Source of the DNA: an uncultured Burkholderiales bacterium
GTDB lineage: Bacteria > Pseudomonadota > Gammaproteobacteria > Burkholderiales > Burkholderiaceae_C
Direction: 5' to 3'
Assembly (NCBI GenBank): GCA_937871935.1
Contig: CALMQI010000119.1
Span: forward strand, 1-33,104
DNA: 33,104 bases
The translations under genes were made by a program, and so were the position numbers. Numbering within the stretch: the first letter of the stretch is position 1; each line of letters begins with the position of its first letter. Below, in pieces: positions 1 through 28,841 of this stretch. Under the pieces are notes generated by a model, which searched no databases, was not told the origin of the DNA, and worked only from the letters and a program-made list of their open reading frames with translations.

Positions 1-1557
1 CTCGGGGCGCGGATTCGGCAGGCGGCCGAAGTAACCGGCGTAGTGGCCCGCGGTCATGAGGCCGAGTCCGAGCGCCGCCAGGCCGGTCAGGGGCGTATTG
101 GGGCTCAGGGCGAGTGCGGTCCCGAGCGCGCTGTAGAGGACCGCGGCGAGAATCAGGGTGAAGGTCGAGACTCGCCGGGAGGCCGTTCCGACGGGCCAGA
201 ATACCGAGAAGAGATGTCCGGGAATCAAGCCGGCCGCGATCGGCCCGGGATCCTTGAGGGTCTGGTCGATGAGGGCTCTGACCATCAGCGCAACTCCGCC
301 CGCGAAGGAGGCAAGAGCGAGCCCCACCCAGAACACGCGGCCCCGGGCGGGCGGGGAGTTGGGCACCAGGGGTGTAAACGCCTGCTCAACGAGCTCCTCC
401 GGATCGAACTCGCGTCCTCGAAAACGGTCCTGGATGTCGCTGGTCGCAACCGTGTCCGGGTTTCCGAACAATTCCTGGACGACCTTCCGTTCGAGGCTGT
501 TCAAACGATCGCGAGGCACGGTGAGCCGCATGGAGACGAGGGGGTCGGTCTCATCTGTTGCCGGCTTGTCGACGGTGATCGAGAGCTTCCGCTGCGCCGC
601 CATCCGCAGCATGAGTTCCTCGAATGAGGGCGACATCGCGCCGTTCCCGTAACGTGCGGCGACCGCTTCTTTGGGCAAGGGTTCAACGATGCGTTCGAAG
701 AGCTGTCGATCACCGCGAGGGGGAGCGCCGAGCAGACGGTTCGAGGCCAGGAAGAGGGCCAGCAGCATCAAACACAGGGCGAACGGTCCGAAAGCGCCGG
801 CGAGGCGGAAGGCGGCGGCTTGCGCGTCGACTTCCTTTGGCTTTCCTTCGGGCAGGTAACGGAGATGCCGCTGGACGCGATAGTCGACGTCGGGTGTGGC
901 GACGCCGATCTCGCGGTCCTTGTCGAGGAGAACCCACGCGGTGTCGTATTCGAAGCGGTAGTTGAGTTCGGGGAGAGCGTTCGGCGAGCCCCGCGTGGGG
1001 AACTCGACGTCGTGGTCGAAACGATAGATGCGGTGAAGATCGGGCCACGCGGCTTTCCATCCCGCGAGCACTTCACGGGCGCGAGCGAACGGGCTGCGCG
1101 GCATCGTTCCCGAGTCGAGAGGTTCTACGCCCGCGGCGATGTCCCAGGACGGTGTCACCGCGCCTTGAAGTGTGTACTCGATCAGATAGCTTCTACGCAC
1201 ACCCGGTTCGATGGGCGGATCCGCCTCGGCCCGGAACCAGATCTGCAGACCCCACGACCAGGACTGATAGGAATCGGGTCCGTCGGGCCCGTTTCTGAGC
1301 GCCTTCTTCACACCGAGGGAATCGACGATCGAAACGCTCTGGACAACCGCGCTCTGATCGGCGCCCACGAGAAGATTGCGATAGGCGTACGTGACCTCGC
1401 CCGAGATCGTGAGCTCGTGCGTCTCTTCCACCCGGACGGCGCCGTTATTGTCGAGCTTCGCCACGACACTCGTCCGGTTCCACTCGAGCTGGCCCTGGGC
1501 GGCAGCGGGCAGAGAACCGAGAAGGGCCAGAAGACCGACCGCGATCGTCCGTTTCAT
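1..1557 (-). CDS. DUF2207-type predicted membrane protein, 3' end beyond window
   Basis: I translated this frame by hand: 519 codons from ATG at 1557 down to base 1 with no stop, so the gene continues off the left edge. Residues 1-21 form a signal peptide ending near AAAQG. Residues ~25-245 form an extracytoplasmic, beta-rich region with an RSYLIEYTL stretch (residues 121-129) typical of DUF2207. A membrane helix follows at ~250-272, then a soluble cytoplasmic stretch (~275-405), then three more hydrophobic segments at ~409-431, ~465-485 and ~488-508. This matches the architecture of DUF2207 (YciQ-like) proteins, whose function is unknown. Base composition looks less GC-extreme than the rest of the window, and no Burkholderiales synteny is apparent. 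It is divergent from the DUF533-like start at 1629. The reading frame is very sure; the family assignment is moderately sure. Confidence 0.7.
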   Translation of the reverse strand, partial: MKRTIAVGLLALLGSLPAAAQGQLEWNRTSVVAKLDNNGAVRVEETHELTISGEVTYAYRNLLVGADQSAVVQSVSIVDSLGVKKALRNGPDGPDSYQSWSWGLQIWFRAEADPPIEPGVRRSYLIEYTLQGAVTPSWDIAAGVEPLDSGTMPRSPFARAREVLAGWKAAWPDLHRIYRFDHDVEFPTRGSPNALPELNYRFEYDTAWVLLDKDREIGVATPDVDYRVQRHLRYLPEGKPKEVDAQAAAFRLAGAFGPFALCLMLLALFLASNRLLGAPPRGDRQLFERIVEPLPKEAVAARYGNGAMSPSFEELMLRMAAQRKLSITVDKPATDETDPLVSMRLTVPRDRLNSLERKVVQELFGNPDTVATSDIQDRFRGREFDPEELVEQAFTPLVPNSPPARGRVFWVGLALASFAGGVALMVRALIDQTLKDPGPIAAGLIPGHLFSVFWPVGTASRRVSTFTLILAAVLYSALGTALALSPNTPLTGLAALGLGLMTAGHYAGYFGRLPNPRPE

Positions 1558-1628
1558 CGCGGCATTCTCTCAGGCCTCACGGCTGCGAAAGGCCTTTCTG
1601 TAGGATTCGCTCCAGGAGACACGAGACG

Positions 1629-1700
1629 ATGTTCAATCCGGAACAACTATTGGGACAGCTGCTCAAGAGCGGACTGGGCGGCAGCCTCGGCGGCGGCCCC
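1629..1700 (+). pseudogene. N-terminal fragment of a DUF533-like protein, cut by a junction
   Basis: An ATG at 1629 has a good ribosome binding site (AGGAG at 1614-1618). It begins MFNPEQLLGQLLKSG and continues with a Gly-rich run, which resembles the start of DUF533/TerB-like (YebE-type) proteins. After about 23-24 residues the sequence becomes Arg/Gly/Cys-rich with no family character. From 1778 another frame reads clear malic enzyme. I infer that only the 5' end of this gene is present and that it has been joined to unrelated DNA. The open frame itself runs on to 1970, but that part overlaps malic enzyme coding in another frame. The family call rests on a very short segment. Confidence 0.35.
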
Positions 1701-1747
1701 GAAGGCCGAGACGCGCATGCGCGAGGAGTTCGACGCCCGGGCAGCGG

Positions 1748-3496
1748 ATGCGGCTGCCGAGGCTGGGCGGTGGCGGCGTGGTGGCCTCGGGCGCGGGCGC
1801 TGCTGCGATCGCCTGCCTCGACATATTCGTCAGCCTGGGTGTGCGCATCGAGAACATCTTTGCTGTCGACTCCAAGGGGGTCATCCGCGCCGGCCGCGGC
1901 GACAAGCTCGATGAGTCGAAGCAGCGCTACTGCCAGAAGACCGAGGCACGCACGCTGGCCGACGTGGTGAAGGGCGCCGACGTCTTTCTCGGCTGCTCGA
2001 CGTCCGGCGTGCTGACCGGCGAGATGGTGTCCACGATGGGGCCAAAGCCCATCATCCTGGCGCTGGCCAACCCCGAGCCCGAGATCCGTCCCGAGCTGGC
2101 CAAGAAAGCACGACCCGACTGCATCATCGCCACCGGGCGTTCGGACTACCCGAACCAGGTGAACAACGTGCTGTGCTTCCCTTACATCTTCCGCGGCGCA
2201 CTCGATTGCGGCGCAACCAAGATCACCGAGGCGATGAAGCTCGCCTGCGTGCGCGAGATCGCCGCGCTGGCCAAGGCCGAGACGAGCGACGAGGTAGCGT
2301 CCGCCTACGCCGGGCAGGAGCTCAAGTTCGGCCCCGACTACATCATCCCGACGCCGTTCGACGTGCGGCTGATCCTGCGCATCGCGCCGGCGGTGGCCAA
2401 GGCGGCCGCCGAGTCGGGCGTGGCCACGCGCCCGATCACCGACTACGACGCGTATCGACAGTCGCTGACCCGCTTTGTCTACCAGACCGGCATGTTCATG
2501 CGCCCAGTATTCGCCGCCGCCAAGGCGCAACCCGCCCGCGTGGTCTACGCAGAAGGCGAGGACGAGCGGGTGCTGCGGGCGGTGCAGGTCGTGCTCGACG
2601 AGCACATGGCCCGCCCGATCCTGGTCGGCCGGCCTGCCGTGATCCAGATGCGCATCGAGCGGGCCGGTCTGCGACTCGCCGCCGGGAGCGACTTCGAGAT
2701 CGTCGACCCCGAGAACGACGCGCGCTTCCGCAGCTACTGGGAGCTGTACCACCAGCTGATGGGGCGCGACGGCATCTCGCCCGAGGCGGCCAAGGCCGCG
2801 GTGCGGCGCTCGAACACGCTGATCAGTGCGCTGATGCTGCGCCGCGGTGAGGCCGACGGCATGTTGTGCGGGCTGGTCGGCCGCTACGACAGTCATCTCG
2901 ACCATGTGCGCTCGGTGATCGGCATGCGCAGCGACGCCCGCACGCTGGCGGCGATGAACGCGCTGATGCTGGAACAGCACACGCTGTTCATCGCCGACAC
3001 CTTCGTCAACGAGGAGCCGAGCGCCGAGGAGCTGGCCGACATCGCCCGCATGGCGGCGGCGGAGGTGCAGCGCTTCGGTGTGCCGCCGAAGGTGGCGTTC
3101 CTGTCGCACTCGATCTACGGCTCGTCCAAGCGCGCATCGGCACAGCGCATGCGTGCGGCGCGCGACCTGTTCGTCCGCCAGGTGCCCGACGTCGAATGCG
3201 ACGGCGAGCTGCACGGCGATGCCGCCTTGTCCGAAGACGTGCGCAAGGGTTACCTGACCGACGGCACGCTCACCGGCTCGGCCAATGTGCTGGTGCTGCC
3301 GAACCTGGATGCCGCCAACATCCTGTTCAACGTGCTCAAGGTCACCGGTGGGCACAACGTGACGGTGGGGCCGATCCTGCTCGGCGCCGCAGCGCCGGTG
3401 CATGTGCTGACGCCTTCGGCGACGATGCGGCGCATTGTCAACATGACAGCGCTGGCGGTGGCCGATGCCGCCGCGATGCGCGACACGGCGCGCTGA
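1748..3496 (+). CDS. maeB: NADP-dependent malic enzyme (MaeB type), 5'-truncated
   Basis: MaeB decarboxylates malate to pyruvate with reduction of NADP+. Full-length enzymes have about 760 residues: an N-terminal malic domain, an NAD(P)-binding domain and a C-terminal phosphotransacetylase-like domain. Here homology begins abruptly at 1778 with VVASGAGAAAIACLD, the Rossmann motif found near residue 190 of E. coli MaeB. The remaining NADP-binding part follows (DSKGVI, LALANPEPEI, GRSDYPNQVNNVLCFP), then a complete PTA-like domain (for example RGEADGMLCG, FIADTFVNEEP, DGELHGDAAL). The malic domain with the catalytic Tyr and Lys is missing. The ATG at 1748 lies in non-homologous sequence and is only the first available start, so the product as written should lack malic enzyme activity. 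pyk follows 91 bp downstream. The family call is sure; the truncation probably reflects the junction at the left end. Confidence 0.85.
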   Translation: MRLPRLGGGGVVASGAGAAAIACLDIFVSLGVRIENIFAVDSKGVIRAGRGDKLDESKQRYCQKTEARTLADVVKGADVFLGCSTSGVLTGEMVSTMGPKPIILALANPEPEIRPELAKKARPDCIIATGRSDYPNQVNNVLCFPYIFRGALDCGATKITEAMKLACVREIAALAKAETSDEVASAYAGQELKFGPDYIIPTPFDVRLILRIAPAVAKAAAESGVATRPITDYDAYRQSLTRFVYQTGMFMRPVFAAAKAQPARVVYAEGEDERVLRAVQVVLDEHMARPILVGRPAVIQMRIERAGLRLAAGSDFEIVDPENDARFRSYWELYHQLMGRDGISPEAAKAAVRRSNTLISALMLRRGEADGMLCGLVGRYDSHLDHVRSVIGMRSDARTLAAMNALMLEQHTLFIADTFVNEEPSAEELADIARMAAAEVQRFGVPPKVAFLSHSIYGSSKRASAQRMRAARDLFVRQVPDVECDGELHGDAALSEDVRKGYLTDGTLTGSANVLVLPNLDAANILFNVLKVTGGHNVTVGPILLGAAAPVHVLTPSATMRRIVNMTALAVADAAAMRDTAR

Positions 3497-3587
3497 GACA
3501 GTCTTGCCAGTACCCACGGCCGTGCGCTTCGGCGTGCGGCCGCGATAATGCGCGGGATTCGCCCGCGCCACCGGAGAACGCTGCCAC

Positions 3588-5018
3588 ATGACCCGCGCCA
3601 CCAAGATCGTCGCCACGCTGGGGCCTGCCTCCAGCGATCCGGCCGTGCTGGAGCGGCTGCTGCGTGCCGGCGTCGACGTGGTGCGACTGAACTTCAGCCA
3701 CGGCACCGCCGCCGACCACATCGGCCGAGCCCAGCTGGTCCGCGACACCGCCGAGCGCGTCGGCAAGCCGGTGGCGCTGATGGCCGACCTGCAGGGGCCG
3801 AAGATCCGCGTCGGCAAGTTCGTCGACGGCAAGGTAACGCTGAAGAACGGCACGCCCTTCGTGCTGGACGCCGGCCGCACCACGCCGGGCGACGCCGGCG
3901 CCGTCGGCCTCGACTACAAGGAGCTTCCGCGCGACGTGAAACCCGGCGACACGCTGCTGCTCAACGACGGACTGATCGTGCTGACCGTCGACACGGTGCG
4001 CGGCGAGCAGGTGCACACGCTGGTCAAGGTGGGCGGCGTGCTGTCCAACAACAAGGGCATCAACAAGCAGGGCGGCGGCCTCACGGCGCCGGCGCTGACC
4101 GCCAAGGACATGGAAGACATCCGGACGGCGATGGCCTTCCAGGCCGACTTCGTGGCGGTGAGTTTTCCGAAGAACGCCACCGACATGGAGATGGCGCGCC
4201 AGCTCGCCAACGTGGCCGGCGAGTCGTTGCGGCACAAGCCGGCGATGATCGCCAAGATCGAACGCAGCGAGGCGATCCCGCAGCTCGAGGCGATCCTGCG
4301 CGCCAGCGACGGCATCATGGTCGCCCGCGGCGACCTCGCAATCGAGGTTGGCAACGCGGCCGTGCCGGCGCTGCAGAAACGCATGATCCGCATGGCCCGT
4401 GAGATGGACAAGCTGACCATTACCGCGACGCAGATGATGGAAAGCATGATCAACAACCCGGTGCCCACACGCGCCGAGGTCAGCGACGTGGCCAACGCCG
4501 TGCTCGACGGCACCGACGCCGTGATGCTGAGCGCCGAGACGGCCGCCGGCATGTACCCGGTGGAAACCGTCGAGCACATGGCGCTGATCGCGCTCGAGGC
4601 CGAGCGCGCTGAGGATCTGCAGCTCGACGCCGATTTCACCAACAAGCACTTCGGGCGCATCGACCAGAGCATCGCGATGGGCGCGCTCTTCACCGCTCAC
4701 CACCTCGGCTGCAAGGCGATCATCGCGCTGACCGAGAGTGGCTCCACCGCGTTGTGGATGAGCCGGCACCTGATCCACGTGCCGATCTTCGGCCTGACGT
4801 CCAAGCCCGGCTCGGAGCGTCGCATGGCGTTGTACCGCAACGTCTACCCGATCCAGATGCCCGCCCACACCGACCGCGACCAGGCGCTGGCCGAGGCCGA
4901 GCGCCTGCTGGTCAAGCGCGGCGTGCTGATGCCCGGCGACACCTACGCCATCACCTGCGGCGAGCCGATGGGCTATCCGGGAGGCACCAACATGCTCAAG
5001 GTGTGCCGGGTCGGCTGA
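3588..5018 (+). CDS. pyk: pyruvate kinase
   Basis: Converts phosphoenolpyruvate and ADP to pyruvate and ATP, the last step of glycolysis, in the cytosol. The product has 476 residues, normal for bacterial pyruvate kinases. Visible motifs are RLNFSHG (33-39), the ADLQGPKIR start of the B domain (66-74), the catalytic segment IAKIERSEAI (221-230) with Lys223 and metal ligand Glu225, MVARGDLAIE (244-253) with ligand Asp249, and TQMMESM (281-287). The C-terminal allosteric domain is present and ends in GTNMLKVCRVG. The start is supported by GGAGAA at 3572-3577. It lies between malic enzyme and aldolase on the same strand, so three steps around pyruvate and glycolysis are neighbours. A GATAAT hexamer at 3544-3549 may be a -10 box, but I see no clear -35 element. 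Confidence 0.97.
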   Translation: MTRATKIVATLGPASSDPAVLERLLRAGVDVVRLNFSHGTAADHIGRAQLVRDTAERVGKPVALMADLQGPKIRVGKFVDGKVTLKNGTPFVLDAGRTTPGDAGAVGLDYKELPRDVKPGDTLLLNDGLIVLTVDTVRGEQVHTLVKVGGVLSNNKGINKQGGGLTAPALTAKDMEDIRTAMAFQADFVAVSFPKNATDMEMARQLANVAGESLRHKPAMIAKIERSEAIPQLEAILRASDGIMVARGDLAIEVGNAAVPALQKRMIRMAREMDKLTITATQMMESMINNPVPTRAEVSDVANAVLDGTDAVMLSAETAAGMYPVETVEHMALIALEAERAEDLQLDADFTNKHFGRIDQSIAMGALFTAHHLGCKAIIALTESGSTALWMSRHLIHVPIFGLTSKPGSERRMALYRNVYPIQMPAHTDRDQALAEAERLLVKRGVLMPGDTYAITCGEPMGYPGGTNMLKVCRVG

Positions 5019-5124
5019 TGCCCGTCGCACTTGAGCCTGGTGGCAACGCGGCGGCCCGCATGCCGTCGCCATCGATCCTGCTGCAGGCGCGCCATAGGCA
5101 TGTGGTTTGCCCGGCATCACGCCG

Positions 5125-5149
5125 GCTCAAGGCGCGGCCCCCCTTGAGC
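5125..5149. other. perfect 8-bp inverted repeat between pyk and fba
   Basis: GCTCAAGG (5125-5132) and CCTTGAGC (5142-5149) are perfectly complementary around a 9-nt loop. No T-run follows on either strand, so a classical intrinsic terminator is not supported. It could be a processing or attenuation hairpin in the pyk-fba spacer (5019-5248), or have no role. Confidence 0.35.
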
Positions 5150-5179
5150 ATGGCGTCGCGGATACGCGGGGGTGCCTCG

Positions 5180-5185
5180 TAGAAT
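5180..5185 (+). promoter_or_regulatory. possible -10 box upstream of fba
   Basis: TAGAAT at 5180-5185 matches five of six TATAAT positions and lies 63 bp before the fba start. No convincing -35 element is at the expected spacing, so this is weak. Confidence 0.25.
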
Positions 5186-5248
5186 CGACAGCAATCTCGC
5201 GCGGCCGCTGGCCGGCGACCGGATTCTTCATCTGCAAGGACTTCCACC

Positions 5249-6313
5249 ATGGCACTCGTGTCGATGCGACAGTTGCTGGACCATGCCGCCGAGCACCGCT
5301 ACGGCATTCCGGCCTTCAACGTGAACAACCTCGAGCAGGTGCAGGCGGTCATGACCGCCGCGGCCGAAGTCGGCGCGCCGGTCATCCTGCAGGCCAGCGC
5401 CGGCGCGCGCAAGTACGCCGGCGAGGCCTTCATCAAGCACCTGATCCTCGCCGCCACCGAGGCCTACCCGAACGTGCCGCTGGTGATGCACCAGGACCAC
5501 GGCCAGAGCCCCGAGATCTGCAAGGGCGCGATCGACCTCGGCTTTAGCTCGGTGATGATGGACGGCTCGCTGCAGGCCGACGGGAAGAGCATCGCCAGCT
5601 ACGACTACAACGTCGACGTGACCAAGAAGGTCGTCGACATGGCGCACCGCCAGGGCATTACCGTCGAGGGAGAGCTCGGTTGCCTGGGCTCGCTCGAGAC
5701 CATGAAGGGCGACAAGGAAGACGGCCACGGCGCCGAGGGCACGATGACGCGCGAACAGCTGCTCACCGACCCCGAACAGGCCGCCGACTTCGTGAAGAAG
5801 ACGCAGCTCGACGCACTGGCCATCGCCATCGGCACCAGCCACGGCGCCTACAAGTTCAGCCGCAAGCCCACCGGCGACATCCTGGCGATCAGCCGGATCA
5901 AGGAGATCAACAAGAGGATCCCGAACACGCACTTGGTGATGCACGGCAGCTCCAGCGTGCCGCAGGATCTGCTCGAGCAGATCCGCCTGTTCGGCGGCAA
6001 GATGAAAGAGACCTACGGCGTTCCGGTGTCCGAGATCCAAGAGGCCATCAAGTACGGCGTGCGCAAGATCAACATCGACACCGACATCCGCCTGGCGATG
6101 ACCGGCGCGGTGCGCAAGTTCCTGGCCGAGAACCCGGACAAGTTCGACGCGCGCGAGTGGCTCAAGCCGGCCCGCGAAGCGGCCTACCGCATCTGCAAGG
6201 AGCGCTACCTGCAGTTCGGCTGCGAGGGCCAGGCCGGCAAGATCAAGCCGGTCGAGTTGACGACGATGGCCAGGAAGTACAGCCAAGGCGAACTGGCGCA
6301 GACCGTGGTCTGA
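5249..6313 (+). CDS. fba: fructose-bisphosphate aldolase, class II
   Basis: Zinc-dependent aldolase that interconverts fructose 1,6-bisphosphate with dihydroxyacetone phosphate and glyceraldehyde 3-phosphate, in glycolysis, gluconeogenesis and the Calvin cycle. The product has 354 residues, the length of the CbbA/FbaA form of proteobacteria. Class II signatures are visible: HQDHG at 81-85 (catalytic Asp83, zinc ligand His84), [10 protein letters not shown] (141-150), TSHGAYK with zinc ligand His198, and MHGSSSVP with zinc ligand His232. The start has an AAGGA ribosome binding site about 10 bp upstream. It follows pyk by 230 bp on the same strand and is closed by a strong terminator at 6359-6396. 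The gene may be labelled cbbA in organisms with a Calvin cycle, but no other cbb gene is in this window. Confidence 0.96.
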
Positions 6314-6358
6314 CAGACGGTCGGCGCAGGACGGTCGGACCGGACTGCCCAACCGAAC

Positions 6359-6396
6359 AGCCCGCCCGCTCGGCCAGAGCCGGCGGGCTTGTTTTT
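6359..6396 (+). terminator. intrinsic terminator after fba
   Basis: AGCCCGCC (6359-6366) pairs with GGCGGGCT (6382-6389). A smaller inner pairing GCTC/GAGC (6368-6371 with 6377-6380) extends the hairpin, and TTGTTTTT follows (6389-6396). It separates the pyk-fba unit from purC. Confidence 0.85.
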
Positions 6397-6455
6397 CGAT
6401 CGGCTCGCGAAGGCACAATAGCCGCTACCACAGTCCAGCCTGGTGCAAATCGCCC

Positions 6456-7382
6456 ATGACGCGTGCACTCTTCGAATCCCACCTGCACTCGTTGAAGCTC
6501 TTGGCGCGCGGCAAGGTGCGCGACAACTACGCCGTCGGCGCCGACCGCATTCTCATGGTCGCCAGCGACCGCATCTCGGCGTTCGACGTCGTGATGGGCG
6601 AACCCATCCCGGGCAAGGGCGAGATGCTGACTCGAATGGCACTGTTCTGGTTCGCACGCCTGTCGCACGTGGTGCCGAATCACCTGACCGGCGAGGCGCC
6701 CGAGTCCGTGGTGGCGCCCGACGAGGTGGAGCAGGTCCGCGGCCGCTCGATGCTCGTGAAGCGGCTCAAGCCGTTGCCGATCGAGGCCGTCGTGCGCGGT
6801 TATCTCGCCGGGTCGGGCTGGAAGGAGTACCAGCAAACCGGCAACGTATGCGGCGTGCCCTTGCCGCCCGGATTGAAGAATTCGTCGCGCCTGCCACAAC
6901 CCATCTTCACACCGGCCACCAAGGCGGCTGCCGGCGACCACGACGAGAACATCACCTTCGAGCAGGCCAGCGCCATCATCGGGCGCGAGATGGCCGAGAC
7001 CGTGCGCGACGTCTCCATCCGCCTGTACCGCGAGGCGGCCGACTACGCACGCGAGCGCGGCATCATCATCGCTGATACCAAGTTCGAGTTTGGCCTGGAC
7101 GAGCGTGGCGTACTGACGTTGATGGACGAGATCCTCACCCCTGACTCGTCCCGCTTCTGGCCTGCGACGTCGTATGCGGAAGGCATCAATCCACCTAGCT
7201 ATGACAAGCAGTTCCTGCGGGACTGGCTGGAGGCGGTACGGGTGGGTGGGAGTCCCTGGAACAAGCGGGCGCCGGCGCCGGAGATTCCGGATCAAGTAGT
7301 CTCAGAAACACAAAACCGGTACAGATCCGCCTGGTCCGACCTAACAAACTATTCGCCACATGGAATCACGACTCACTCGTGA
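6456..7382 (+). CDS. purC: phosphoribosylaminoimidazole-succinocarboxamide synthase (SAICAR synthase)
   Basis: Joins aspartate to carboxyaminoimidazole ribonucleotide using ATP, in de novo purine synthesis. The product has 308 residues. Family motifs are ARGKVRDNY (17-25), ASDRISAFD (36-44), [45 protein letters not shown] and [15 protein letters not shown], in the order of the long proteobacterial form. The C-terminus is unusual: after the expected end near [10 protein letters not shown] it runs 12 residues further ([10 protein letters not shown]), and the DNA from about 7290 becomes visibly less GC-rich. The last 23 bases overlap the next gene in another frame. In many Burkholderiales purE and purK follow purC; here they do not. 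I infer that the 3' end of purC lies at the edge of inserted or rearranged DNA. Function should be intact, since all catalytic motifs are present. Confidence 0.95.
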
Positions 7383-8478
7383 CTTGCAGAGCTCAATCAG
7401 AGCCAGCTCCGACAGAATCGAGTGGGCACGGAATCTATGCCGCCTCGCGTCGCATGACGCGCGGCAAGGTCTCGAGAGCCAATCCGCCGCTGCAATTGAG
7501 GCAGTGCGCAAGTCCTTCGGGAGTGGCCTTGAACCCGAAGTCGCTGCGTGGCTAATGCTCGCTGAAGGAATTGCTTGCTTCGTTCGGGGCGACTTTGATC
7601 TCGCTCGTGATCGCATCCGACGTGCTTATGGAATCGCAGCCGCCATGAATGCGCGGCGCGCTCAACCCAGTTGTGCAGCCTGGCTCGCGCATCTGGAGTT
7701 CAATCTGAGCAGTTTCTCAGCTATTGCCCCACCGCTCCAGGACGCATTGTTGTTGGCAGGAATAGACGATCATCAGGCGCTCGCGCGCGCGTCACTGGTC
7801 ATGGCAGATGGACTGCACTTCTCCGGCAGCTTTCGCAGCGCGCGCCGATGGTATGACGAGGCTCGAGTGCATGCGCTCAAGGAGGGCGACGATGCCACGG
7901 TCAGTGCGTTACTACACAACGTAGCCGCGTTCAGAGCAGCTAACGTGAGGCTCGCACATGCTCTAGGCACCGAAATGAAGGACGAGGCCCGCCGCGCACA
8001 GCTCGAGGCAACGTCAGCATTGAGCTATGACGCAGCTATTGGTACCCAGTCATTCAAGTCACTTTCTGCACTGGTTAGAGGGCAGCTGCTACTGGTCGAG
8101 GAACGGTTCGACAAAGCGATCGAGGCTCTAGTGAGCATACCGATGCAGACCCTTCCTGAACGATTGCGTTGCGTGCTCCTCACTGACATTGCATGGTGCG
8201 CGAGGGGACAAGGACAACACGAGACAGCGCTGGACGTCGCTAGAAGCGCGGTTTCTGAGATGAGCGAAGGCGTCGATACGGACGATCTGGTGTACGTATG
8301 CGCTCGCCTGTCGCAACTGTTCGCTTCGTTCGGGGATGCGGCTCTTTCGCGCCGCCTAGCCGCCGATACAAGAGTGGCGATGGACCGTCATCGATCCATA
8401 CAGCAAAGTCTCCAGGCCGAATTGCTCAACGTCGAGCGCATGGTCTTAGCCGAGAGACAAAGAAATAGCCCGGCCTGA
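7360..8478 (+). CDS. hypothetical TPR-like alpha-helical protein
   Basis: The product has 372 residues, with no signal peptide or membrane segment. It is almost entirely helical and Ala/Leu/Arg-rich. Repeating helix pairs look like degenerate tetratricopeptide units, for example [19 protein letters not shown] (~68-86), [20 protein letters not shown] (~154-173), [19 protein letters not shown] (~234-252) and [20 protein letters not shown] (~274-293). This resembles the MalT-like TPR scaffold often found in front of output domains, but no GGDEF, HTH or other output domain follows. Base and codon use (many AT-ending codons) differ from purC and nrdA on either side, suggesting later acquisition. 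The ATG at 7360 overlaps purC by 23 bp and lacks a clear ribosome binding site, so the start is uncertain. The stop codon sits in the loop of the hairpin at 8467-8486. I do not recognise a specific function; protein-protein interaction is the likeliest role. Confidence 0.8.
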
Positions 8479-8486
8479 GCCGGGCT
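8467..8486. terminator. bidirectional hairpin terminator between the TPR gene and the H1-like gene
   Basis: AGCCCGGC (8467-8474) and GCCGGGCT (8479-8486) form a perfect 8-bp stem around a 4-nt loop that contains the TGA of the upstream gene. Read on the minus strand, the stem is followed by ATTTCTTT, a fair U-tract, so it should end the H1-like transcript. On the plus strand the tail GTCTTC is weaker. The genes on both sides converge on it. Confidence 0.65.
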
Positions 8487-8505
8487 GTCTTCGCTGGCGA
8501 AGAGA

Positions 8506-8894
8506 CTAGGGCTTGTTGCCCGTAGGGAAGGGCCATGCAGCCGCCGGACTTAGCGCGGTCTTTGCTGCCGGTGCGGCCGCAGCAGCAGGCGCAGCCTTCT
8601 TAGCTGGCGCCTTTTTTTTTGCAGCCTTCTTCTTTGCAGGCGCCTTCTTCTTGGCTGCCTTCTTCTTCGCTGGGGCCTTCTTCTTGGCTGCCTTCTTCTT
8701 GGCTGCCTTCTTCTTTGCGGGCGCCTTCTTCTTGGCTGGAGCCTTCTTCTTCGCAGCGGCCTTCTTCTTGGCTGGAGCCTTCTTCTTCGCAGCGGCCTCT
8801 TGGTTGCAGGCTTCTTCGCAGCAGCCTTCCTGGCCGGAGCCTTCTTCTTCGCAGCAGCCTTCTTGGCCGGAGCCTTCTTCTTCGCAGTTGCCAT
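8506..8894 (-). pseudogene. histone H1-like Lys/Ala/Pro-rich DNA-binding protein, one-base frameshift
   Basis: The start at 8894 has a strong AAGGAGAT ribosome binding site. The reading frame begins MATAKKKAPAKK and repeats AAAKKKAPA units, as in the bacterial histone H1-like proteins of Burkholderiales that compact the nucleoid. After ~32 residues (PATKR) the annotated frame changes to an Arg/Gln-rich string ending at 8550. Adding one base near 8796-8800 (plus-strand CCTCTTGG instead of CCTTCTTGG) restores KKKAPAKKK-type repeats all the way to SPAAAWPFPTGNKP and a TAG at 8506-8508. The repaired product would be 129 residues, and that C-terminus is what I expect for this family. It lies 213 bp downstream of nrdB on the same strand. 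The break is either a sequencing or assembly error in a low-complexity repeat or a real inactivating or phase-variable deletion; the sequence alone cannot decide. Confidence 0.8.
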
Positions 8895-9107
8895 TTCGAT
8901 CTCCTTGATCAAGTTGCGAAAAGCACCTTGCCGCTTCTTGCAGCTCGGCGATTCACCGCTGTGAACTCAAACCTGCCTCTCGGCGTGCTGGAATCCCTTC
9001 GCGATGAATGGGGGGTGGCGACGTTCGTCAGTTCTATCGACAACGATCCGTCAACCACGAGTCTTGATCTCTTCAGCTGGGTCGGCTCTGCGGTGTGCTG
9101 CAGAACA

Positions 9108-26138: not shown

Positions 26139-27221
26139 ATGAAGGACTCCCTGCGACAGCAATTCGAACGACTGGCCTTCAGGCTGGGCGAGCTCGATGC
26201 CATGCTGGCCGATCCAGCCACCGCCGGCGACATGACTCGCTATCGCGCGGTAGCGCGCGAGCGGGCTCAGGCGGCCGACATGGTGGCGCGGTTCGACGCC
26301 TACCGCCAGCGCGAACACGACATCGCCGAGGCCAGCGAACTGCTGGATGATGCGGAAATGGCCGAGATGGCCAAGGAAGAGGTGGTGGCGGCCCGCGCCG
26401 ACCTCGATCGCATGCTGCAGGAACTGCAGACGGCCCTGTTGCCACGCGACCCAGACGACGAGCGTAACGCCTTCGTCGAGATCCGGGCCGGTACAGGCGG
26501 CGAGGAGTCGGCACTGTTCGCCGCCGACCTGGCCCGGATGTACCTGCGCTACTGCGAGCGCCGCGGCTGGCACACCGAGCTGATGAGCGAGAGCGCGTCC
26601 GACCTCGGCGGCTACAAGGAAGTGGTCATCCGCGTCGCCGGTGAGCGCGCTTACGAGCGCTTGAAGTTCGAATCCGGTGGCCACCGGGTGCAGCGCGTGC
26701 CGGCCACCGAAGCACAGGGACGCATCCACACCAGCGCGTGCACCGTGGCCGTGATGGCCGAGCCCGACGAGCAGGCCGAGGTGACCTTGAATCCGGCCGA
26801 GCTTCGCATCGATACCTTTCGTGCCAGCGGCGCCGGCGGCCAGCACGTGAACAAGACCGACAGCGCGATCCGCATCACCCACTTGCCGACCGGCATCGTC
26901 GCCGAGTGCCAGGACGACCGCTCGCAGCATCGCAACAAGGCCAAAGCGATGGCCGTGCTGCTGGCCCGCCTGCGCGACAAGGAGCGCAACGAGCGCCAGC
27001 AGAAGGAGGCCGCTGAACGCAAGAACCTGATCGGTAGTGGCGACCGCAGCGATCGCATCCGCACCTACAACTTTCCGCAGGGCCGACTCACCGACCATCG
27101 CATCGGGCTGGCGCTGTACCGGCTGGGGGCGGTGATGGAGGGCGATCTCGACGAGGTGATCGATGCGCTGATGGCGGCCCGCGCCCAGCAGCAGTTGCAG
27201 ACGCTCGAAGCAGGCGCATGA
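26139..27221 (+). CDS. prfA: peptide chain release factor 1
   Basis: Recognises UAA and UAG stop codons and triggers release of the finished protein. The ATG at 26139 gives 360 residues, the standard RF1 length. The stop-codon-reading tripeptide Pro-Ala-Thr is at 188-190 ([15 protein letters not shown]), which marks RF1 rather than RF2. The catalytic GGQ is at 233-235 ([13 protein letters not shown]). [15 protein letters not shown] is the usual C-terminal signature. The gene follows hemA by 68 bp and overlaps prmC by ATGA; PrmC methylates the glutamine of the GGQ loop, so the coupling makes functional sense. Confidence 0.97.
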
Positions 27222-28042
27222 CGATCGACGATGCGCTGGCCGAGGCCCGCGCGCGCGGGATCGATCGACTCGATGCGGCCGTGCTGCTGGCTTGCGTGAC
27301 GGGCCGGTCGCGCACCTCTCTGATGGCCCACGGCGGCGACCGGCTGGATGCTACGGCGATGACGACGTTCGCGCGCCTTTGCGACCGCCGCCGCGGCGGC
27401 GAGCCGCTTGCCTACCTGACCGGCGAGCGCGAGTTCTTCGGCCTGCGGATCGCGGTATCGCCGGCGGTACTGGTGCCGCGACCGGATACCGAGACGCTGG
27501 TCGTCTGGGCACTCGAACTGCTCGCCGGGCCGCTTGGCGGCCAGCGCCCCGCGGTCATCGATTTGGGAACCGGCAGTGGTGCTGTTGCGCTCGCCCTGGC
27601 CTCGCGCTGCCCAAGTGCACGGATTACTGCGACGGACTTGAGCGAAGCCGCACTCGGTGTCGCCCGCGCAAACGGACAACGACTCGGACTGCCCGTGCGA
27701 TGGCGGTCGGGCGACTGGTGGCAGGCCGTCGCCGGCGAGCGATTCGACCTGGCTCTGTCGAATCCGCCGTATGTCGCCGAAGACGATCCCCACCTGGCTG
27801 GACTGGCGCACGAGCCGCGCTGCGCCCTGGTGGCGGCGGACGCCGGCCTTGCCGCCCTGCGCCGCATCGTGGAGTTGGCGCCCGCTCATGTCTCGGCTTG
27901 GCTGCTCGTAGAGCACGGATGGGATCAGGCCGAGGCGGTTCGCGGCATGCTGCGGGCAGCCGGGGCCGCCGCAGTGGAAACCCGGCTCGACCTGGCCGGC
28001 CACCCGCGTTGTACCGGCGGCTGCTGGACGTCGGGCTGCTGA
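27218..28042 (+). CDS. prmC: release factor glutamine methyltransferase PrmC (HemK)
   Basis: Transfers a methyl group from S-adenosylmethionine to the GGQ glutamine of release factors. The product has 274 residues. An N-terminal helical domain (~1-80) contains [20 protein letters not shown]. The methyltransferase fold shows [10 protein letters not shown] (85-94), the SAM-binding [13 protein letters not shown] (113-125) and the catalytic [10 protein letters not shown] (181-190) with NPPY. The C-terminus ends in [12 protein letters not shown], near the expected VTGG-R end. The start overlaps the prfA stop by 4 bp, indicating coupled translation. Confidence 0.95.
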
Positions 28043-28226
28043 GGTCACGGGCAGCCTTGTCGTCGCTTTGGCAACAGCCCCCAAGAATGCGGGTGCAACC
28101 AAGCGCATCGACGGTTCACGATGCACCAACCGAAGCGTACGATGGACCGAGCGGTGGCAAATGGCCGCTGCCGGCTGGTGACGAGGCGCCCTGTCTGCTC
28201 GGAACCGGCGTCGTGGGGAGCACAAG

Positions 28227-28841
28227 ATGAATGCAGCGCGCACGGGAATCGTTGTCGCCGGCTGGCTGGTTGCAGGCCTCAGCCATGCCGCCGCGGGGCA
28301 GGGCTTGGCGGTTGACGCCGACGGCCTCGGGCCGCGCTGGCAGGCCCGACTGCAACTGACCGCAGACGCGGCGCCGGCCATGTCGCTGAACGATCAGTTG
28401 CGCAATTTCGGCCCTTCGCGCACCCGCTCGGCCGCTGTGTTCGGCGACTACTATCTGGCGCAACCGTGGTTCGGCGAATCTGGTGGACTGCGGATCACCA
28501 GTGGCCTGCTGACGGGCCAGCGTGGCGCCGTCCTGGGCCCGAGTGCAGTTGCACAACTGGACTCGAACGTGTCGGCCTCCATCAGCCGGCTCGCCGGTCA
28601 TGCGCCAGGCGGCAGCGACAACCCCAGTGAGGCCAATCAGACTTGGCCATACCTGGGCATCGGCTACAGCGGCAGCAGCCTTCGTGGTGGCTGGGGCTTT
28701 AGCGCCGATCTGGGACTGGCGGCGCAGAACCCCAGCGTCATTCGCCTGGGTCGCATGACGGTCACGGCCGGTTTCGACGACTGGGTGCGCGAGATGCGCC
28801 TGACGCCGCTGGTGCAGCTCGGCGTGTCGTACAAGTTCTGA
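28227..28841 (+). CDS. outer-membrane-like beta-barrel hypothetical protein
   Basis: The product has 204 residues with a GGGGAG ribosome binding site 6 bp before the ATG. A signal peptide occupies ~1-24 (GIVVAGWLVAGLSHAAAG). The mature part shows alternating polar and hydrophobic strands (RWQARLQLTADAA, SAAVFGDYYLAQPW, GGLRITSGLLTGQ, PYLGIGYSGSSLRGGWGFSADLGLAAQ) and ends in VQLGVSYKF; a C-terminal Phe is the usual signal of outer-membrane barrels. Eight strands would fit the length. It sits between prmC and grxD, which are often nearly adjacent in relatives, so it may be a lineage addition. The exact function is unknown. An outer membrane location is inferred. Confidence 0.75.
   Translation: MNAARTGIVVAGWLVAGLSHAAAGQGLAVDADGLGPRWQARLQLTADAAPAMSLNDQLRNFGPSRTRSAAVFGDYYLAQPWFGESGGLRITSGLLTGQRGAVLGPSAVAQLDSNVSASISRLAGHAPGGSDNPSEANQTWPYLGIGYSGSSLRGGWGFSADLGLAAQNPSVIRLGRMTVTAGFDDWVREMRLTPLVQLGVSYKF

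Follow-up and report, generated by a model that had tools for sequence, protein, structure and literature searches.

A truncated maeB gene at the end of a Burkholderiales contig: very probable misassembly with Acidobacteriota-like DNA

The window (the whole stretch of 33,104 nt that was analysed) makes up the whole of contig C119, which belongs to a draft genome comprising 463 contigs and 6.57 Mb, with an estimated completeness of 91.7% and contamination of 3.1%. At its left end, a malic enzyme gene begins in the middle, directly behind DNA of other kinds, which raises the question of whether maeB lost its malic domain in the cell or was joined to unrelated DNA outside it. A sequence-only reading had offered both a contig joined from two genomes and a real recombination removing the malic domain. 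The analysis presented here indicates, at a probability of about 95%, that the join between 1–1.7 kb of C119 and maeB is an assembly artefact and not biology.

The 3' part of maeB and its native neighbourhood

The ORF at 1748–3496 (+) encodes part of the malic enzyme NAD-binding domain, followed by a full PTA domain. In Pfam, the NAD-binding domain (PF03949) was covered at profile positions 28–231 of 258, indicating that it is cut at its start, and the PTA domain (PF01515) at 1–319 of 319 (E = 1.1e-91), while the N-terminal malic domain (PF00390) had no Pfam match in this ORF. Homology and Pfam assigned 1778–3496 (+) to the 3' part of one maeB copy (copy A), which shared 89.6% identity over 578 aa with the gene of G002, a congener of the window organism (82% complete). 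The homology had been placed from 1778 at about residue 190 of the family, and protein alignment bore this out (residue ~197 in the protein of G002). Across 40 genomes searched, 35 of which matched (own genome included), the best matches to maeB set in at 1778–1790, and the longest DNA alignments to relatives' maeB began at 1778–1779; matches across or left of 1778–1790 were few and short (E = 9.9e-6 or weaker), and no long match crossed the 1778 junction in these genomes. The ATG at 1748 results from the join.

The next gene, at 3588–5018 (+), which we take to encode pyruvate kinase, anchors the true locus as a native neighbour; it lies behind maeB and is collinear in G002, on contig C7 of G016, and in G022, the latter two being other genomes of the window's family. 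DNA alignment revealed that 1778–7210 of the window is collinear with G002:C249 from 5431 to 1, and the same order around maeB was found in G016:C7 (with ~2.9 kb extra) and G022. In these relatives, maeB is one uninterrupted frame, of 817 (G002), 787 (G022), and 807 (G016:C7) codons counted from the preceding stop, and the DUF533/maeB arrangement was not seen in the 39 other genomes of the 40 searched. G016 harbored two similar A-type maeB copies (C3:547195 and C7:221299), each 80% identical to the window, and of the two 20-kb stretches read in that genome, the C7 stretch alone contained the pyruvate kinase neighbourhood. Elsewhere in the window, a lysine/alanine-rich repeat protein at 8450–8930 (-), presumably histone H1-like, showed a frame switch, starting with MATAKKKAPAKK and continuing with AAAKKKAPAKKK in another frame, which is probably an indel error or repeat collapse, or else a real frameshift.

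Affinity of the DNA left of maeB

The ORF at 1–1557 (-) runs off the contig end and encodes a membrane-type protein of 519 aa, considered foreign on the basis of protein searches and composition. It had been named a DUF2207 gene; the ORF stands, and the label is weak, the protein being loosely DUF2207-like with a Pfam match to PF09972 (E = 0.028, 15.1 bits) that did not reach the cut-off of 24.4, and with no family found in NCBIfam. In the window's phylum, from which 398 genomes were searched, the protein was found in the own genome alone (0 of the other 397), and in a search of 100 genomes among relatives it was found in none of the 99 others. A Vicinamibacteria MAG (G487) encoded a relative at E = 3e-74, with 52% and 43% identity over two parts. 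Vicinamibacteria belong to Acidobacteriota, and 11 of 396 genomes of this phylum, G487 included, had matches, four of them reaching E = 1.4e-19 or lower, two lying around 1e-7, and five weaker than 1e-6; the seven weak matches (E = 1.9e-7 to 3.3e-4) count against the artefact reading. Sequence comparison across the two phyla searched in depth, i.e., the window's and that of the Vicinamibacteria MAG, thus assigns the left part a foreign, Acidobacteriota-like affinity. Peptide patterns confirmed no left protein in a collection of genome contigs, which is a weak negative because G487, from the same collection, carries a relative; peptide patterns in viral contigs and translated searches of plasmids and phages gave no match either. 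The relative in G487 (locus L141, C408:32–1503) consists of two pieces in different frames that meet at about 736, likely reflecting a frameshift.

A different base composition had also been claimed for the left part. GC content did not bear this out, since 0.63–0.67 in the blocks of 1–1750 lies within the contig's range, and GC was rejected as a marker of the foreign part; tetranucleotide and codon usage did set it apart. When 1–1600 was compared with the rest, as the sequence-only reading had proposed, its tetranucleotide distance to the own mean was 0.436, against 0.243 (sd 0.047) for own tiles, of which 1 of 69 was as far. Distances to two G487 loci were 0.251 (L092) and 0.235 (L141), and those to loci of three other genomes of the same phylum were 0.284, 0.371, and 0.459, such that the segment is not close to every locus of that phylum (0.235–0.459). 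The codon usage of the left ORF was the lowest of 58 ORFs (z = -9.0; next -7.9). The ORF with z = -7.9, at 27068–28381 (-), has a mean codon score below that of the left gene, lies antisense to the ORF at 27218–28042 (+), and is probably not a gene.

To the right of this protein, about the first 24 codons of a DUF533 gene were found at 1629–1700 (+, end approximate), probably from the same foreign genome as 1–1557. The ORF opens with MFNPEQLLGQLLKSGL, and its first 16 residues (16/16) are those of the DUF533 protein at L092 of G487, which passes the Pfam cut-off (PF04391), so the DUF533-like start proposed at 1629 is well founded; at the DNA level, 40 of 45 bases at about 1625–1669 are identical to the L092 gene. 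The truncated ORF itself matched no Pfam family, PF04391 included. A DNA pattern of this start was reported in 92 stretches, 80 of which were examined as loci with L092 as the best, and none of the 80 contained the left protein (best E = 0.34). The same MAG, G487, carries both the left-protein relative and the best DUF533-start match. In the five loci read from G487's phylum, the DUF2207-like gene was not observed next to the DUF533 gene, which leaves their pairing unconfirmed and counts against the artefact reading; two of these loci start at a contig end, inside the gene or just ahead of it.

Between this gene start and maeB, the ~80 bases at 1698–1777 fit neither flank, in line with the ~75 bp already described as belonging to neither side; they are not devoid of affinity, though, and most resemble trmL, presumably a SpoU-family tRNA methyltransferase gene. 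In 299 family genomes, with three candidates scored per genome, the best match was in G1051 (83% over 58 bases, E = 1.8e-8) and the second best in G041 (85% over 52 bases, E = 7.6e-8), and the two fall on one position within trmL; the G041 match (52 bp, 85%, E = 9e-8) had also been the best of 60 genomes in an earlier search, and its score of 60 compares with a control maximum of 41 among 300 segments. Six of the 29 match loci examined, with the two best among them, lie in trmL at this place, and 23 do not. In G487's phylum, the best match was equally weak (E = 2.4e-7 among 396 genomes). The own trmL, on C377, matches the bridge (on the minus strand of its locus) at the same place with a score of 50, which 0 of 300 control segments reached (maximum 39–42); as a source it was rejected, the C377 sequence being clearly different, and two other own SpoU-family loci (L161 and L163) gave no match (scores 25–30). 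These comparisons suggest that about 1712–1766 (+), which excludes about a dozen bases on either side, is probably a third piece, from trmL of a relative in the window's family, with low sequence quality, given that single-base insertions break its frame. The window showed only weak self-matches to the junction (best E = 0.014), and a fold-back or internal duplication within the window was rejected as its source. An imperfect inverted repeat (1682–1697/1750–1765; 16 nt, 88% complementary, 52 nt apart) extends from the end of the DUF533 piece into the bridge; it could be chance in GC-rich DNA or the trace of a fold-back template.

The missing half of maeB and a second mosaic gene

Besides the window, malic domains were found in the own genome on C118 and C419 only. 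C419 3738–19144 is collinear, in three blocks, with G002:C249 4497–19977 (to the end of the fetched stretch), and these blocks run through maeB and up the side opposite to the window's; likewise, the DNA upstream of maeB in G002, G016, and G022 corresponds to C419. Taxonomic affinity switches at the join on C119, and the other half of the severed gene lies elsewhere in the same assembly. In MaeB hybrid proteins, the PTA part acts as an acetyl-CoA sensor and regulates the malic part (PMC7902834). The window ORF corresponds to the ordinary 3' part of such a hybrid (PF00390 + PF03949 + PF01515) and differs from it by the N-terminal malic domain; this domain is missing from C119 because it is located on C419, and the enzyme itself does not lack it. 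A maeB without a malic domain would be odd, and the sequence comparisons argue that there is no such gene here.

The maeB of C419 was itself mosaic. At C419:2924–5260 (-) (loci L002 and L016), a full-length, intact-looking ORF combines a copy A 5' part with the 3' part of a paralogue, copy B. Its protein resembles G002 MaeB in the N-terminal part and a different paralogue after the FHDDQHGTAI stretch. In eight 50-column blocks of the 5' part (5227 to ~4830), identity was 88–94% to G002 copy A and 68–96% to copy B of G003; from 4727 on, 34 of 36 blocks were nearer to copy B, with one tie and one nearer to A. The best switch point was C419:4822/4817, up to which the informative sites divide 76 A : 18 B and beyond which they divide 123 A : 453 B, and the zone is not sharp (roughly C419:4840–4790). 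Flanking DNA of copy B was also present, as C419 122–2247 corresponds to the region beyond copy B in G003, and 2296–2886 to a segment on the opposite side of that copy. In G002 coordinates, one half of copy A ends at ~5581 and the other restarts at 5431, indicating that ~150 bp of this copy are in neither contig. The conserved gene order and the A/B site pattern thus establish, at the level of sequence, the synteny of maeB and the mosaic on C419, which is probably another misjoin, and one that would escape annotation.

These observations are consistent with the following course. The true maeB copy A would run from C419 48006 to ~4820 on its 5' side and from C119 1778 onward on its 3' side, and the assembly would have broken within it, a gene with paralogues elsewhere in the genome and with strongly conserved stretches. 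The copy A 5' half would have become linked to paralogue B's 3' half, giving C419, and the orphaned copy A 3' half would have been joined, via the short trmL-like piece, to a foreign fragment (1 to ~1700) from a co-occurring Acidobacteriota-like genome. Several maeB copies in one genome make it more natural that a misjoin struck this gene in both contigs. The presence of three unrelated gene pieces within ~150 bp, one of them frame-broken, fits a chimeric read or a low-support join. We infer that the joins arose through software or through chimeric reads or templates, not in the cell. No shared k-mer was identified at the joins, which counts against an artefact.

Competing explanations and consequences for annotation

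Of the other accounts, the one that fares best, while still improbable, is that the bin mixes two congeneric species, one G002-like with copy A and one G003-like with copy B, C419 being a cross-species chimera. In line with this, G002 (at its 82% completeness) showed A only and G003 showed B without A when 14 candidates per genome were scored; against it stand the contamination estimate of 3.1% and the fact that scoring 40 of 687 candidates gave one full-length copy of pyruvate kinase for the own genome. A two-species bin would in any case be compatible with an assembly artefact. Less likely still is that the C419 hybrid is a true recombination between paralogues A and B, by inversion or translocation, with only the left end of C119 an artefact. 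Strongly conserved stretches shared by A and B (94–98%, one 50-column block) are places where cells could recombine, yet a reciprocal event predicts a B 5'–A 3' hybrid, and it is foreign DNA that precedes the A 3' half; moreover, the bin yielded no B 5' half, although a misjoin on C419 would predict one as well, and copy A is unbroken in three relatives.

Very improbable is the second option of the sequence-only reading, that Acidobacteriota-like DNA entered chromosomal maeB by real recombination and the malic domain was lost. The given sequence is continuous, the right ORF is open to the ATG at 1748, and the one imperfect inverted repeat described above, which may be chance, lies at the join. 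Against this, the missing 5' half and the syntenic upstream region are on C419, the left segment sits at the contig end and is broken off inside an ORF at base 1, no tRNA was found in 1–4000 and no direct repeat in 1400–2000, and Pfam revealed no mobile-element family in the three ORFs tested in 1–3496; the arrangement was, in addition, unseen in 39 other genomes, with the left protein in 0 of 99. Equally remote is a subpopulation carrying an Acidobacteriota-like insert in maeB with an NAD-binding/PTA remnant, the A/B recombination on C419 having occurred in the same population.

The evidence thus favors an assembly artefact, i.e., the first option, a contig joined from two genomes, given the 5' maeB half and its neighbourhood on C419 and the Acidobacteriota-like relatives of the left protein. 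Chimeric MAG contigs of the kind targeted by GUNC (PMC8201837) resemble C119 in an abrupt lineage change within one contig; they differ in that here the foreign part amounts to just ~1.7 kb at one end of the contig, and scores for a whole bin may miss such an end. A strong case for a misjoin can be made without reads where the gene order is known from relatives and another contig carries the severed half, as here. The warning that 1–1.78 kb should not be used to describe the organism was right: the annotation of 1–1777 is to be discarded, which averts three wrong annotations, namely a regulatory MaeB in truncated form, an Acidobacteriota gene gained by horizontal transfer, and, on C419, an intact-looking mosaic MaeB, and no MaeB without a malic domain is to be inferred for this organism.
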